This document shows, piece by piece, positions 46,146-53,151 of a DNA stretch of 64,000 nucleotides. Where the stretch lies: NCBI GenBank assembly GCA_945861435.1, contig CAMAUX010000022.1:1-64000 (forward strand), read 5' to 3'. The notes beneath the pieces are model-generated. The model was not told where the DNA came from and made no database searches. It was given only the letters and a program-made list of their open reading frames with translations. The position numbers were made by a program, and so were the translations under genes. This stretch comes from Chthoniobacter flavus (GTDB lineage: Bacteria > Verrucomicrobiota > Verrucomicrobiia > Chthoniobacterales > Chthoniobacteraceae). The stretch's first letter is position 1. The number at the start of each line of letters is the position of its first letter.

Positions 46146-47087
46146 CTAACGGGCTTCCTTCGCGCCTTGAGAATTGCCTTCCGCCGAGGAAGCAGACGCC
46201 CCCCCCTCTGCCGGCTTGGGCTTTACGCCCTCTGCGCCAGCAGAAGCGGTCCCACCGGTCACCGCCGCACCTTTAGTCACGCCGGAATCAACCGCCACCC
46301 GCTCCTCTTTTTTTTTGGCAACCGCCAAAAGCAACCACAGCACCGCGATTGCACCCGCGATAACAAACAGCACCCCATTACGATTCCACGGTTTCGGCAC
46401 GGCAGGGGAGCCCCCAGTGTCCCGAAGAGACGGCTGAGGGAACGAGGGAAGAACCGCAACATCCGCCTCATCACAGATGCGACCTTGCGCCGCTGAATCG
46501 TACGGATGACCGATCACCACCCTCAGACCGTCCCGGGCGCCCAACTCCCTGCCCTCGAGCTTCGACACCAGCTCCGCGAACCCACCGCCCTCCGGTCTCC
46601 GGTAGTGGTTTCGCACGCGGCCAAGCTCGCCTGAAGTGCCTGCGTCACTCGGCAGGCCATCAATGAAAGCGCGCACCCTCTCCACATCAAAATCCCACTC
46701 GGGATCGCTCTTCGCCCGGGAAATCAGAGACACGAGCTCCCTTGCCCTCGCCTCCCAATCCTTCAAAAAAGCACATGCAATCGCACGCGCCTGCTCCTGC
46801 GTGAGCTCAAAGAGTGCAAACTTGACGTAGATGGGCCCTGGCGAAACCTCAGAGCGGTACTCGCTGGGCAACCCGCTAAGCAGGGCCGAAAACTGCCCAT
46901 CCAATTGCGCGATTACCACCCCGGGAATGTCGCCTGCCAAAGTGTCCTCCAGTTGGCGAAGGCTTCGATGATCCCGAACGTGGCGATCAGGCACAGTGTC
47001 ATTACGATCCAGCCAAGACGCCTTCCAATGGTATCCATTTTCACGGGAGTAACCCCGCGTCAGAACAGCGAATTTCCCCTTATACAT
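46146..47087 (-). CDS. Tail-anchored protein of the GTPase operon
   Basis: About 313 residues from ATG 47087, which overlaps the stop of the preceding GTPase gene by 8 nt (ATG 47117 is the alternative). A folded N-terminal part (about 1-200: FAVLTRGYSRENGYHW, PGPIYVKFALFELT, ARELVSLISRAKSD) is not recognised. A single membrane helix (near residues 230-252, NGVLFVIAGAIAVLWLLLAV) is followed by Lys and an Ala/Gly/Ser-rich tail. This looks like a tail-anchored membrane protein. It is the last gene of the operon and probably ties the two GTPases to the membrane. Confidence 0.75.
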   Translation of the reverse strand: MYKGKFAVLTRGYSRENGYHWKASWLDRNDTVPDRHVRDHRSLRQLEDTLAGDIPGVVIAQLDGQFSALLSGLPSEYRSEVSPGPIYVKFALFELTQEQARAIACAFLKDWEARARELVSLISRAKSDPEWDFDVERVRAFIDGLPSDAGTSGELGRVRNHYRRPEGGGFAELVSKLEGRELGARDGLRVVIGHPYDSAAQGRICDEADVAVLPSFPQPSLRDTGGSPAVPKPWNRNGVLFVIAGAIAVLWLLLAVAKKKEERVAVDSGVTKGAAVTGGTASAGAEGVKPKPAEGGASASSAEGNSQGAKEAR

Positions 47088-48069
47088 CGAAAATGAGGTC
47101 GCTGACTTTTCTGCCATCTGCCGTCGACTCAGACATCTTTTTCAACATTCCACCAAGCTTTTCAATTGCTTCCGTCCGGTCTGTTCCGAGTCCGAGCATT
47201 GTCGCAAGCGTATCAATAATTGTTTTCTCCCCATCGATCTTCTTTTTCGACGCCTCCAGAATCTTCCCAATGATCCAACGCAATGGCACTGAACAGTATC
47301 GCGGAGCGTAACCCACCTCGACCCGCCGAAACGTCACGATCGGCACTCCTGTATCTTGATCTTCCCGGAGGTCGTTGAAAACGATGTTTCCAACCGTTTC
47401 CACCGCACAGGCGTTCGCCTTAAGCGCCCGCAGTCTCTCATAGCTTTCCTTCAGCTTTGCCCGCAGTTCGTCTTCTCCGAACTTCCCTTTAAGACCCTTT
47501 CCTGCGGCCGCCCGCAAATACGTTTCCGCCTTGACAGCAACTACAAGAACCAATGGGGGAACAGCTCTTTCATGACACCTCCTATATATGTTGTCGCATA
47601 TCAACTTAGGATTATTAACTAGCTTGTTATACTTGCCTTGATTTTCCATCAGCGCGACTGCATCTACTGCGACAAGAATCACATCCGCTTCTTGGAGCAG
47701 TTTGTCTGCAACCTCGGTTCTCCCTTTCCCCACGTACCACTCCCCCGGAAGGTCGACAAAATGAAGGTGGATCTTGGGAATGCCGCGAAAAGTGGGATGG
47801 GCCAGCGTGAAAGGAAACTCCTTTTTGTCCATCGTGGATTCTGGCCCAAGAGCCACCTCCGTCCTCATTCCCGGCCCTGTCGCCATGCGTTCCAACCGGG
47901 CCCTACTTTCTTCGAGGACAGCATCTGGTGCCGAATCGTCCCCCAAAAACTCAAATCCCGATTTCCTGACCTCCTGCTGAATCCGGGCCGCCATTGCGGC
48001 AAGCAGCGAGGTCTTCCCCACGCGACTGGGGGCGGTCATCACTATCTTAATGGTAATATCGTCGGGCAT
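47080..48069 (-). CDS. P-loop GTPase (TRAFAC-like)
   Basis: 329 residues. Walker A is TAPSRVGKTSLLA (residues 12-24), with a G3/Walker B-like HFVDLPGEW, and a G4-like VVAVKAE near residues 175-181. The overall layout (early P-loop, a long variable insertion, DLPGEW) resembles the small GTPases found in recently described bacterial NTPase conflict systems, but the family is not certain. It lies 15 bp downstream of the dynamin-like gene and overlaps the next gene. No signal peptide or membrane helix. Confidence 0.75.
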   Translation of the reverse strand: MPDDITIKIVMTAPSRVGKTSLLAAMAARIQQEVRKSGFEFLGDDSAPDAVLEESRARLERMATGPGMRTEVALGPESTMDKKEFPFTLAHPTFRGIPKIHLHFVDLPGEWYVGKGRTEVADKLLQEADVILVAVDAVALMENQGKYNKLVNNPKLICDNIYRRCHERAVPPLVLVVAVKAETYLRAAAGKGLKGKFGEDELRAKLKESYERLRALKANACAVETVGNIVFNDLREDQDTGVPIVTFRRVEVGYAPRYCSVPLRWIIGKILEASKKKIDGEKTIIDTLATMLGLGTDRTEAIEKLGGMLKKMSESTADGRKVSDLIFDV

Positions 48070-48084
48070 GTCGTGTGGGGTGAG

Positions 48085-50244
48085 TTAGTTGGCTTTCGTG
48101 AGTTTTCGCAGCGAGGCGACGGCCGCATTCCAGTCCCGCAGTAACTGGGCTTGGTCTTCCAGTCTCCCAAACTCCTCCGGCCACACCTCGCCACGATGAT
48201 CGTCGTAAAAAAGCTCCCACCGGTCCTTCGCCTTGTCCGAGCCACCCTCGTGCACCACGAGATCCTCAAAGTCCTGCACCAAAGCAAACCGCGCCATTGC
48301 AGGTTCCGCGCTCAGGTCTTCCAGAGGCTCACGCATTCCATTGCGGGCATTGTGCCATCCCAAGGTCAGGTCCGCGTTCACCACTTCCACGCCCGACCCC
48401 GGAGCGAAAGAGATCCCTCCCTCAGAAGCGCTGTCGAGGATGTCGAGGCAGGACCGAACCCGCGGCTGAATAAATCCGCGGAACGACAGCTTCGCGCTCA
48501 GCAACAACTCGATGGCGTTCACCACCGGTGCCCCCCCGTCCCCGCACTGTTTCCAGCGCTCCAACAAAGTCATCCACGCTTCCGCCTCGGGCTTGCCCTC
48601 AAGAAACTTCAGACGCCCTCCCCCGGAAGACCGGAATATTTCCAGAACCTCGCTGCGCAGCTTTACAAAGCTCGCATCCAAGCTCGAATCCAACTCGTCC
48701 AAGCCGCGGGAAATGGCCACCCGCAGCGCATGCACTTTTTGGGCGAAGTAGACCGCCCCGCCTCCCGGACCAAACTTGTCTGAGAGCAAGTGACCCGGCC
48801 CCTTCTCCATCAACGCCATCGCCTGCCTCACCGCGCCCAGAAACTCGTCGTCGGACTGGTCCCTTTTTGCCCGGTAAACATCGACCAGATTTTTGAGCCT
48901 CTCGCAGATCGAGTCCCATACAGGCCCGAATACCTTTTTCAAAAGGCGCTGGTCCGTCGTCGCCGCCCTGGGCAGCACGCCCGACGCCGCCTCCACAAGC
49001 GCCCGGAGTTTGTCCTCCCCATTCTTCACCCGCTCCAAGCTCCCTGCGAAAAGCTTCTGATCCAGCCTGCTAATGTTGCCGGCCACGTCATCCAGAATTT
49101 GCTCCACGCACGCCGCCACGGCAGCTTGATTCATGCAGTTCGCGGTCAGCAAGAGCCGCGTCCGCATCGTGCTCCCCTCCAGCTCACGCCGGAAAAACGG
49201 CAGGTTGTCCGAAGTATTGGGATTATCGTTGATGACAAAATAAGACCACTCGGCGGGCGTGAGACTGGGGATCGCCCTTTTGACGAGGCCATGCAGGTTC
49301 GTGTCCGCAGGATCAATCGCACGCGTAGCTGGCGTCATCCGCAGGAAAATCACAACGTCCAGAGACTCCCCCACGGTCTTCACCAATCGATCCTCAGCTC
49401 CGCTCAGGAAATCCCCAAGCCCCGGGGTGTCCGCGAGCGCTATGCTCCCCACATCAGACTGCGGGAACCGACACTTGATTTGCACCATCTCCACCGCAAT
49501 CCAGTTGGTCAGCTTGCGCTCATTCGCATCCTTCTGCGCCACGTAGGAACGGATCTCCTCCCGCGGAACCCGCTTCACGCGCCCCGTCAGCAGGCTGCGG
49601 TACGCGCTCAACGATTGCTGGTAGTACCGCAGCTTCTTGAGATGTTCCTCGTCCGTCGTTGGATCCTTCGATTCCGCAGCCGGGGCCTCGGGCAGAGGGA
49701 CCGCCGCAAATTCATCCAGAGACAAAGGCGCCTCCCCCAACTGGAGTCGCTTGAAAAAGGGCTCCACAACCCAGTCCAGAAAATTCCGCTCCGTGTAGAA
49801 CGTGATGTCTGCGTACGTCTCCGGGGAATCGTGATTGGTAACAATCGAGGGCGCCCCCGTGCAGTGATCCCCCGCCGCCGCCGGAATCTCCTCATTGGTA
49901 AGCCCGGTGATCTGCTGCAGCAGCGTGCTCTTCCCCTGCCCCGCGCGCCCCGCAACCCCAATATTCAGGGTTGGCCGCGCGAAGCGCGCCGCCAGTCTCT
50001 CACACTCCCTCGTCGCATCGGTGACCGCGTCACGGACCGCATCGACCTGCGAACTCAACCCCTGCAGCTTGTCGGCATATTCGCGATCCACCTTCCGGGC
50101 GCTGTTTGCGATGCAAACTTTGAACGTATCCAGTTCTTTGAACACGTCCCCCAGCCTTGCACTCTCCTTGCGGGCCCGTTCCGCCATGGGCTTGCGCGAT
50201 TCAATGATGCTCTGGATTTTTTGTGCACGGGATGCGGTGGTCAT
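48085..50244 (-). CDS. Dynamin-like large GTPase
   Basis: About 719 residues from ATG 50244. Helical N-terminus (about 1-95), then a GTPase domain with G1 GVAGRAGQGKSTLLQ, G2 Thr after GDHC, G3 LADTPGLGD and an ND-type G4 (VINDNP). A long alpha-helical region follows (about 370-720) that could be the stalk. No membrane helix. It is similar in layout to bacterial dynamin-like proteins and to LeoA-type GTPases, and it heads a three-gene operon with 47080 and 46146. The start is chosen at MTTASRAQK; an earlier in-frame codon at 50289 would only add a short leader. Confidence 0.82.
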   Translation of the reverse strand: MTTASRAQKIQSIIESRKPMAERARKESARLGDVFKELDTFKVCIANSARKVDREYADKLQGLSSQVDAVRDAVTDATRECERLAARFARPTLNIGVAGRAGQGKSTLLQQITGLTNEEIPAAAGDHCTGAPSIVTNHDSPETYADITFYTERNFLDWVVEPFFKRLQLGEAPLSLDEFAAVPLPEAPAAESKDPTTDEEHLKKLRYYQQSLSAYRSLLTGRVKRVPREEIRSYVAQKDANERKLTNWIAVEMVQIKCRFPQSDVGSIALADTPGLGDFLSGAEDRLVKTVGESLDVVIFLRMTPATRAIDPADTNLHGLVKRAIPSLTPAEWSYFVINDNPNTSDNLPFFRRELEGSTMRTRLLLTANCMNQAAVAACVEQILDDVAGNISRLDQKLFAGSLERVKNGEDKLRALVEAASGVLPRAATTDQRLLKKVFGPVWDSICERLKNLVDVYRAKRDQSDDEFLGAVRQAMALMEKGPGHLLSDKFGPGGGAVYFAQKVHALRVAISRGLDELDSSLDASFVKLRSEVLEIFRSSGGGRLKFLEGKPEAEAWMTLLERWKQCGDGGAPVVNAIELLLSAKLSFRGFIQPRVRSCLDILDSASEGGISFAPGSGVEVVNADLTLGWHNARNGMREPLEDLSAEPAMARFALVQDFEDLVVHEGGSDKAKDRWELFYDDHRGEVWPEEFGRLEDQAQLLRDWNAAVASLRKLTKAN

Positions 50245-50431: not shown

Positions 50432-51079
50432 ATGGCCAGCGCATATCCCGACACCCCAGCCACCCTTTTGGAAAAACTCGCACACCGGGAACTCGAAGCC
50501 CCATGGCATGAGGCCTGGCAGACTTTCACCGACCTCTACCTGCCAGCCATCCGTTGGTCCGTCCTCCGATCCTTCGCCCGCTGCAACTGGCACCGCACCC
50601 CGGACCACATGGTCGAGGACGTGATCTCCGACGTCGTGGTCGCCCTCGTGCGCGGACAGGAGAAGTTCCATTACAACCCCGAGGAGGGCCGTTTCAGGAA
50701 CTACATCAAGCAACTCGTCCACTGGAAGGTGATCGACCGCATCAAGTCCCATCCCGGCCGCATCGAGGCCGGCATGGACGGACTCGACGCGCACACCGAT
50801 GAGTCCGTCGAAAACGGCCTCGAATCCCTCGCCCGCCGCGAAGACGAGGCGTGGGAAGCCTCCACCCTCGGCCTCCTCCTCGAGGAGGTCCGCCGCCGCG
50901 TCAGCCCCCAGACCTACATGGTCTTTGAAATGACCAAGCTCCAAAACCGTCCCGCAGAGGACGTCATGGAGGAAATGGGCATGACGCGTTCCGCCGTCGA
51001 CAACGCCAATCACAGGGTCATGAAGGCGCTGAGCCGCCTCGCCTCCACCACCGCATTCAAACGGGAGCTGATGTCATGA
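50432..51079 (+). CDS. RNA polymerase sigma factor (ECF-like)
   Basis: 215 residues from ATG 50432. Sigma-2 region includes DLYLPAIRWSVLRSFAR and YNPEEGRFRNYIKQLVHWKVIDRIKSH; sigma-4 region (about 150-215) includes VSPQTYMVFEMTKLQNRPAEDVMEEMG and a helix-turn-helix NANHRVMKAL. It should recruit RNA polymerase to a specific promoter set. Its stop overlaps the next start (ATGA). It is divergent from the dynamin-like gene (187 bp apart), so it could also control that operon. This is not shown. Confidence 0.88.
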   Translation: MASAYPDTPATLLEKLAHRELEAPWHEAWQTFTDLYLPAIRWSVLRSFARCNWHRTPDHMVEDVISDVVVALVRGQEKFHYNPEEGRFRNYIKQLVHWKVIDRIKSHPGRIEAGMDGLDAHTDESVENGLESLARREDEAWEASTLGLLLEEVRRRVSPQTYMVFEMTKLQNRPAEDVMEEMGMTRSAVDNANHRVMKALSRLASTTAFKRELMS

Positions 51080-51513: not shown

Positions 51514-53151
51514 ATGCCTCCCACCCCGGCCGCCGCCACCCCGCCAGAACTCCTCAGGTTTCTGGGCTCCGGGGGCTTCGGCGAGGTCTGGCTCGTACGC
51601 GACACCGCCGGCACTCTCAAGGCCCTCAAGCGCATCCCAGCAAACGCGCGGCGCGCAATTGCCCGCGAGGAGGAGGCGCTCCTCGCCTTCCAACGCTCTA
51701 TCGGCCGGATCACCAGCCCCAACATCCTCCCCATCGAACACGTCTTCAGAACCTCCGAAGCCCTCTGCTACCTCATGCCGCTGGCCGATGGCACGGGGGC
51801 ACTCAGTCCGGAAGACCCCGCATGGAAACCCCGCACCCTCGAGGAACTCACCCGGCAGCAGCGCACACAGCCGCGCTGGTTCTCCGGCGCACAGATCCGC
51901 CACCTGCTCACGCCCGTGGTCGACGCCGCCACCGCACTCTCCCACGCCGGACTCGTCCACCGCGACATCAAGCCCTCGAACATCCTCTTCCGCAATGGCT
52001 CGCCCTGCCTCGCTGACTTCGGACTCCTCCACGCCGACTCCCCCACCCTCAGCGCCATCGGCACCCCGGGATTCTTCGCCCCAAGCTGGTACCTGGAAAC
52101 AGGCGGCAATCCGGACCTCTGGGGCCTCGCCTGCGTCCTCTACACCCTCCTCTCCGGCAACAGCCCGGACAAACTCGGCCGACCCGCCTACCGCTGGCCA
52201 CCCACCGGCGAAGCGGCACTCCCGGCTCACACACGGGCCGAATGGCTGCGCCTCCACCGCGTCGTCCAGCGCGCCACCCACGAGCAACCCACCGAGCGCT
52301 ACCTCAGGCTCGAGGATTTCCGGGCCGCTCTGATGGCCACGGCCAAGCCACCCGCGCCGCCACTGCGCGGAATCCTTGCCGCAACCACGCTCGCAATCCT
52401 CGTCGGAGGAGCCTGCACGGCCTACTTCCTCCGGCTCCCGGGGCCGGCACCCTCGCAGAATCCACCGTCCACCGCCACACAAGCCCCTTCTGCGCCAACC
52501 CCAGAAACACCCTCCCCGGCTGCGCCTGCCCCCCCTCGCTCCCCTGAAAACACCGCGCCCTCCGCAGAACCACCCGGCGCCACCGCGTCCACCCTCCCCA
52601 ATCCAGCCCCCGCACGCCCCTCGAACACAGCGCTTCCGCCCCCGTCCCCAACCGGCCCCCCTCGCCCTGAGGCAGCTTCACCCCCGCCCAACCCCGGATC
52701 GGATCCGATCTTCGGCTCACTCGACACCACCCTCCTGTACTCCGAGCGACGGCCGGGCATGAAGGAGATCAGGCTCAGCTCCCTTCCCACCCACTCCACC
52801 CCCTCGGATGCGGTTTTCACGGCGAGGGAGAAGACGGCAAGCATCGCCATGCATGCCCTCGATGTGCGCCTCACCCCCACGGGCCTCCTCCAAGAACTCG
52901 ATCCCAAACAATGGCCGGAGGTCGTGGAAACGGGCGGCCGCATCGCACGCGGAGAAATCCCGCGTAGCAGCATAAACGCGCACATCGACCGCGTGATGAA
53001 GCCCGTCGACGAGGCCGTGGAAGCCGTGCGCGAACTGGTCGCCGGGAATTACGAGGACATCGTCCGCTACAACAACCTTGTGCGCTGGCGCAACAGTATC
53101 GAGGGATCCGCGTGGATCCACTTCAACGGGTTCATTCCCAACCCCCGCTGA
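51514..53151 (+). CDS. Membrane Ser/Thr protein kinase with Pro-rich linker
   Basis: 545 residues. The Hanks-type kinase (about 10-270) has LGSGGFGEVW, ALKRIPA, HRDIKPSNIL and LADFGLL. A membrane helix follows (about 287-305, LAATTLAILVGGACTAYF). A Pro/Ala/Ser-rich extracytoplasmic linker (about 310-400) leads to a C-terminal helical domain of about 150 residues (TAREKTASIAMHALDVRLTP...) that is not recognised. It follows the sigma/68-aa pair by 231 bp and may share its regulation. Substrate unknown. Confidence 0.9.
   Translation: MPPTPAAATPPELLRFLGSGGFGEVWLVRDTAGTLKALKRIPANARRAIAREEEALLAFQRSIGRITSPNILPIEHVFRTSEALCYLMPLADGTGALSPEDPAWKPRTLEELTRQQRTQPRWFSGAQIRHLLTPVVDAATALSHAGLVHRDIKPSNILFRNGSPCLADFGLLHADSPTLSAIGTPGFFAPSWYLETGGNPDLWGLACVLYTLLSGNSPDKLGRPAYRWPPTGEAALPAHTRAEWLRLHRVVQRATHEQPTERYLRLEDFRAALMATAKPPAPPLRGILAATTLAILVGGACTAYFLRLPGPAPSQNPPSTATQAPSAPTPETPSPAAPAPPRSPENTAPSAEPPGATASTLPNPAPARPSNTALPPPSPTGPPRPEAASPPPNPGSDPIFGSLDTTLLYSERRPGMKEIRLSSLPTHSTPSDAVFTAREKTASIAMHALDVRLTPTGLLQELDPKQWPEVVETGGRIARGEIPRSSINAHIDRVMKPVDEAVEAVRELVAGNYEDIVRYNNLVRWRNSIEGSAWIHFNGFIPNPR

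Follow-up and report, generated by a model that had tools for sequence, protein, structure and literature searches.

A conserved operon of a dynamin-like GTPase, a DO-GTPase and a membrane-anchored protein in Chthoniobacter flavus and other bacteria

The stretch of DNA analysed here, referred to as the window, comprises 64,000 nucleotides from Chthoniobacter flavus (assembly GCA_945861435.1, contig CAMAUX010000022.1, positions 1 to 64,000) and carries a three-gene unit that encodes two different GTPases and a single-pass membrane protein. The first gene (P0001; 48085..50244, minus strand) encodes a large GTPase of 719 amino acids that belongs by its predicted fold to the dynamin superfamily, the second (P0002; 47080..48069, minus strand) a small GTPase of the DO-GTPase2 family of 329 amino acids, and the third (P0003; 46146..47087, minus strand) a third component of 313 amino acids. 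The dynamin and DO-GTPase genes are separated by 15 nucleotides (nt), and the DO-GTPase gene overlaps the third gene by 8 nt. Alignments of each of the three proteins are consistent with starts at 50244, 48069 and 47087, as judged from the N termini of relatives. An earlier account made from the DNA letters (the sequence-only reading) had placed three open reading frames at these coordinates on the minus strand, with the 15-bp spacing and the overlap; we re-read the frames at those positions and found all of this correct.

The three genes form one conserved, co-inherited unit. A single-sequence search of genome contigs with P0001 gave nothing, and an alignment-based search was needed to reach its relatives. 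When the dynamin alone served as the search profile, 80 loci came back from named genomes, and in 61 of them the genes follow one another on one strand in the order dynamin, DO-GTPase, third gene. The gaps in these complete loci are short (medians of about 18 nt and 11 nt, mostly below 50 nt). The GTPase and/or the third gene occurs in additional copies in nine of the 61; of the other 19 loci, several sit on contigs that break off close to the dynamin. All three profiles were also run against 146 cyanobacterial genomes drawn independently. The matches to the dynamin profile, the strong ones to the DO-GTPase and those to the third gene at E < 1e-10 fell in the same 16 genomes, with the genes adjacent every time; one more genome has the dynamin alone. 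Across 39 loci the distance matrices of the three genes give Mantel correlations of 0.94, 0.88 and 0.87, values reached by 0 of 2000 permutations. Our conclusion that this is one unit follows from the order conserved in 61 of 80 loci and the shared gene history. The sequence-only reading had also taken the genes for one functional unit and had said that a trio not conserved together would count against it; what we found instead was strong co-occurrence, both in the fetched loci and in the cyanobacterial draw.

The unit is spread over at least nine bacterial phyla, and the tree contains Cyanobacteriota, Planctomycetota, Actinomycetota, Verrucomicrobiota, Pseudomonadota, Chloroflexota, Bacillota, Synergistota and Thermodesulfobacteriota. 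Most of the aligned dynamins, 43 of 67, come from Cyanobacteria, the richest group. Some copies are plasmid-borne, and one of the plasmids is typed as conjugative. The dynamin of the window sits on a long branch beside the planctomycetal ones, its nearest relatives at 36% identity, and the 96 other genomes searched from the same order held no full-length relative. We read the module as accessory, horizontally patchy and membrane-associated.

The AlphaFold 2 (AF2) model of P0001, built with 67 relatives, has a mean predicted local distance difference test score (pLDDT) of 91.8 and displays a G domain plus a helical bundle or stalk, which places the protein in the dynamin superfamily by modelled fold, as the label of dynamin-like GTPase in the sequence-only reading had it. 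The best Foldseek matches are SynDLP (E 1.6e-11), BDLP, IniA, the Cj-DLP pair of Campylobacter and MxB, with E values from 1.6e-11 to about 1e-9 for SynDLP, BDLP, IniA and the Campylobacter pair, and VIA-align gives Z scores of 23.2 to mitofusin 1 (MFN1), 22.0 to SynDLP and 17.4 to BDLP. The Pfam Dynamin_N family scores 22.9 bits, under its 27-bit cut-off. All of the superfamily motifs G1 (GxxxxGKS), G2 (threonine) and G3 (DxxG) are present. In the alignment of 67 relatives the G1 motif or P-loop reads GRAGQGKS in the window (residues 99-106; 49927..49950, minus strand), and G99, G104, K105, S106, T129 and D272-x-P274-G275 are invariant. In the G4 region, where RD or N/TxxD is expected, N339 is invariant; the window reads N-D-N-P and the relatives vary. 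None of the 67 dynamins has a transmembrane-like stretch (the highest 19-residue Kyte-Doolittle mean is 1.52 in the family and 1.28 in the window), and therefore the link to the membrane must come via a partner or an amphipathic tip. P0001 shares its overall fold and its G1-G3 motifs with BDLP, SynDLP, IniA and mitofusin, but differs from them in lacking a membrane helix and in having, in most loci, a DO-GTPase and an anchor as obligate neighbours.

The second gene, which the sequence-only reading had recognized as a further P-loop GTPase, belongs to the DO-GTPase2 family: P0002 matches PF19993 at 40.7 bits against a 27-bit cut-off, and 44 of the 48 members of the DO-GTPase family of the unit match PF19993 at E <= 0.01. 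A sequence search of the PDB with P0002 gave no real relative. Its P-loop reads APSRVGKT (residues 13-20; 48010..48033, minus strand), the first glycine being replaced by alanine. The window copy further reads D-x-P-G-E, with a glutamate that is a candidate for the conserved Walker B glutamate of Kaur et al. and that only 8 of 48 relatives have at this position. In that description (Kaur et al. 2020, PMC7159879), DO-GTPases are paired with GAP1 proteins in systems nearly absent from cyanobacteria, N-terminal zinc ribbons are found on the GTPase in 60% of described members, and dynamin goes unmentioned. Our unit and the DO-GTPase/GAP1-N2 systems (PMC7159879) share a DO-GTPase2-family GTPase, an association with the membrane, sometimes two GTPase copies, and, beside a constant core, parts past the membrane helix that vary and sometimes bind peptidoglycan. 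The unit differs in that it is without GAP1, has no zinc-ribbon GTPase that we could see (P0002 starts straight with the G domain, without N-terminal zinc ribbons), adds a dynamin and is common in cyanobacteria. It thereby extends the DO-GTPases to cyanobacteria, where the original description has them almost absent. The genome of the window also holds a separate GAP1-N2 locus (G000:C9:71985-72350; L123, 6343-11187) that encodes a GAP1-N2 protein of 1002 amino acids and, upstream of it, a 610-amino-acid P-loop protein with zinc-ribbon-like motifs; the GTPase of this locus was not detected by the GTPase profile of the triad at E < 1.

The third component matched no Pfam family, and a PDB profile search with its family found no real relative. 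Its AF2 model averages a pLDDT of 74, with higher values across most of the N-terminal domain; this domain is followed by a linker of low confidence, a long membrane helix and a disordered low-complexity tail. The single membrane helix spans residues 236-267 (46287..46382, minus strand), where the 19-residue Kyte-Doolittle mean reaches 2.91 at residue 239 and AF2 draws a single long helix. The sequence-only reading had called the protein tail-anchored, and a single helix toward the C terminus is indeed present; about 50 residues follow it, more than the limit of about 30, so P0003 is membrane-anchored near its C terminus but not strictly tail-anchored. In several relatives the chain ends 0-5 residues past the helix, and across the family the tail ranges from none to about 450 residues. 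What the tail contains varies by species and includes peptidoglycan-binding parts (L094, L102), five immunoglobulin-like repeats (L043) and WD40 (L061, L062). Where the third gene is duplicated, one copy is often without the helix. A stray match of P0003 to Cas5 (E 0.027) was judged to be chance.

The N-terminal domain of P0003 (residues 1-150; 46638..47087, minus strand) is likely, though unproven, to be longin-like, a type known as a platform for small GTPases. In the AF2 model the order of secondary structure over residues 6-143 is b-b-a-b-b-b-a-a, matching the b1-b2-a1-b3-b4-b5-a2-a3 of longin domains, and ranks 1-14 in VIA-align are all longin-family structures or complexes with them (Z 4.3-6.3), among them Asgard Roadblock-Longin, Lst4, sedlin, FLCN-FNIP2, GATOR1, TRAPP, DENND10 and Ykt6. 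Foldseek alone gives E 0.2. The longin platforms (Asgard Roadblock-Longin, FLCN-FNIP, GATOR1, TRAPP sedlin, R-SNAREs) are the best structural matches of P0003 and have the same order of secondary structure. Its layout of a putative longin domain plus a C-terminal membrane helix is R-SNARE-like; it differs from them in being bacterial and in being encoded with a dynamin and a DO-GTPase.

The sequence-only reading had likened the operon to LeoABC, and this comparison fails. LeoABC (PMC4159319) comprises two dynamins, LeoA and LeoBC, without a DO-GTPase or an anchor. Our unit shares with LeoABC/Eleos (PMC4159319) a dynamin-centred operon and, in P0001, a helical N terminus and P-loop weakly similar to LeoBC, but it has one dynamin, a DO-GTPase as the second GTPase and a membrane-anchor partner, and the matches of P0001 to the LeoBC and LeoA models are weak (E 3e-4 and 0.014). 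The suggestion of an undescribed system fared better: no account of the triad was found in the open-licence literature, the scope of that search, with subscription papers and preprints lying outside it. The unit is a real and widespread three-component module, apparently undescribed and a variant of GTPase-centred membrane systems.

Beside the unit, and divergent from it, lie an extracytoplasmic function (ECF)-type sigma factor (50432-51079) and a Ser/Thr kinase with a membrane helix (51514-53151), both of which the sequence-only reading had pointed out. We rejected the pair as members of the unit, as no recurrent neighbour family near the relatives resembles either; a search of seven related genomes found nothing close to the sigma factor. 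A DUF445 protein (P0006) was rejected in the same way, no recurrent neighbour family of that kind being found near the relatives, and it is absent from same-genus genomes. The surrounding block is not the same in same-genus genomes: CimA-PBP synteny is preserved in two of them, and the side that carries the unit differs there. The GC content of the DO-GTPase gene, 0.521, is the lowest among the long genes of the window and that of the dynamin gene, 0.604, is typical, so that base composition is mixed inside one operon; taken as a test for transfer, composition singles out the DO-GTPase gene alone.

Other gene arrangements were also seen. In other Verrucomicrobiota (L028:8149-17269; L026:484-9682; L025:5951-13766) three to four dynamin-like genes, one with a membrane helix, are arrayed in tandem and lack a DO-GTPase and an anchor; this is a different type of dynamin cluster. 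In termite-gut Planctomycetaceae known from metagenome-assembled genomes (L034, L035, L037, L038, L040), a protein of 160-199 amino acids with an N-terminal membrane helix is encoded between the dynamin and the DO-GTPase. Six Nostocales loci (L016:12602-13060, L051, L063, L073, L083, L101) carry a family of 136-197 amino acids with no convincing Pfam match just downstream of the third gene.

We tentatively read the unit as an accessory envelope module in which the anchor is the sensor, the DO-GTPase the switch and the dynamin the membrane remodeller, an assignment to which we give a little less than an even chance. The third protein would be an envelope platform, with a predicted cytosolic longin-like domain, one membrane helix and a variable tail beyond the membrane. 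From the parts we infer the partners, the trigger and the outcome as follows. The longin-like domain would bind the DO-GTPase at the membrane, as longin/roadblock domains do with Rag-, Rab- and MglA-type GTPases. The exposed tail would sense the envelope, and a disturbance or an invader would, via the platform, flip the DO-GTPase switch. At the inner membrane, the GTP-loaded complex would then recruit or unlock the dynamin. Because none of the 67 aligned dynamins has a membrane helix, an economical reading is that the anchor recruits them. The dynamin may then oligomerise and fuse, seal or constrict the membrane, leading to envelope repair or containment of the invader. Cells with the unit would probably remodel or seal membrane under attack or envelope stress. 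The conserved order, the shared set of cyanobacterial genomes, the correlated gene histories, the dynamin fold, the DO-GTPase2 match, the longin-like order with its best structural matches and the variable tails speak for this reading. So do genes beside the operon in some lineages that would act on membranes or in cell death and fit membrane attack or regulated death, among them the CHAT-TPR genes of Nonomuraea described below. In Akkermansiaceae the gene 19 nt upstream of the dynamin encodes a protein with a C-terminal membrane helix (L103:6950-7984 and L091:6914-7978), and the L103 copy, from Akkermansia, has a lecithin retinol acyltransferase (LRAT) domain (E 7.7e-12). A precedent is the Bacillus subtilis dynamin DynA, for which phage resistance and membrane surveillance have been reported (PMC8844932); DynA differs from the unit in being a single fused two-subunit dynamin without the two partners.

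Several observations weigh against this assignment. The best longin Z score of 6.3 is under the safe level of the tool and can reflect a common arrangement, and no sequence similarity of P0003 to longin proteins was found. In the window, residue 13 of the DO-GTPase is alanine where 46 of 48 relatives have glycine, and residue 84 of P0003 is glycine, a position held by arginine in 61 of 62 relatives. Because of these two replacements, in the P-loop glycine and in a kept arginine, the unit in the window may be a specialised or weakened one that functions differently or poorly.

A dedicated anti-phage or conflict system is the alternative that survives best. Infection would trip the switch formed by the anchor and the DO-GTPase, the dynamin effector would damage or seal the inner membrane, and the cell would die or trap the phage. 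An immune or conflict role, to which the sequence-only reading had compared the operon, is plausible, and the patchy distribution with plasmid carriage, the tails that vary around a constant core (a pattern shared with the DO-GTPase conflict systems that Kaur et al. 2020, PMC7159879, described), and the presence of filamentous cyanobacteria and actinomycetes among the hosts all speak for it. So do the two CHAT-TPR proteins (1570 and 857 amino acids) encoded directly upstream in Nonomuraea (L068:644-7926), the second of which overlaps the dynamin start by 4 nt. However, the similarity of the dynamin to PADLOC models of known systems is weak, defence models (E 1e-15) are matched by a minority of 94 sampled neighbour proteins, a count without a matched control that gives no strong defence-island signal, and the viral contigs searched held no relative. 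Taken as a dedicated system of this kind, the unit is a candidate that we hold to be rather unlikely.

Less probable still is an accessory module for membrane traffic or maintenance in large-genome bacteria (vesicle, septum or thylakoid remodelling), unrelated to conflict: a dynamin, a small GTPase and a longin-like anchor follow the logic of eukaryotic trafficking, and cyanobacteria supply most of the aligned dynamins, but the unit occurs in just 16 of 146 cyanobacterial genomes and in 0 of 96 other genomes of the order of the window, often on plasmids. That the unit is a reduced or divergent DO-GTPase/GAP1 conflict system with the third protein as a minimal GAP1 is very improbable, for although the GTPase superfamily is shared and, by eye, the N terminus of GAP1-N2 has a resemblance in which a D-x-x-G-R motif separates two strands, the third protein was rejected as GAP1-N2 by hhalign with shuffled controls (a profile comparison without signal, its score within the shuffled null, on a GAP1 alignment of 4-5 sequences only), GAP1-N2 occurs in no triad locus, and the 25 Pfam families that the third-protein family matches most often include no GAP1 family.

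Bacterial dynamins are mostly known as single proteins or pairs with unclear control, and in the unit a dynamin has a switch GTPase and a membrane anchor dedicated to it. The conservation of the unit across at least nine phyla makes the switching-on and placement of a bacterial dynamin a directly testable question. If the longin fold is true, the unit would be a compact bacterial case of the eukaryotic membrane logic of platform, GTPase and dynamin, and its core would possibly be more novel. A bolder and doubtful step is to see in it a bacterial equivalent of the toolkit for membrane traffic in eukaryotes, with a longin-fold anchor, its own small GTPase and a dynamin in one cross-phyla operon for on-demand membrane remodelling; if that held, the longin/GTPase/dynamin logic would exist in bacteria as a self-contained mobile module.

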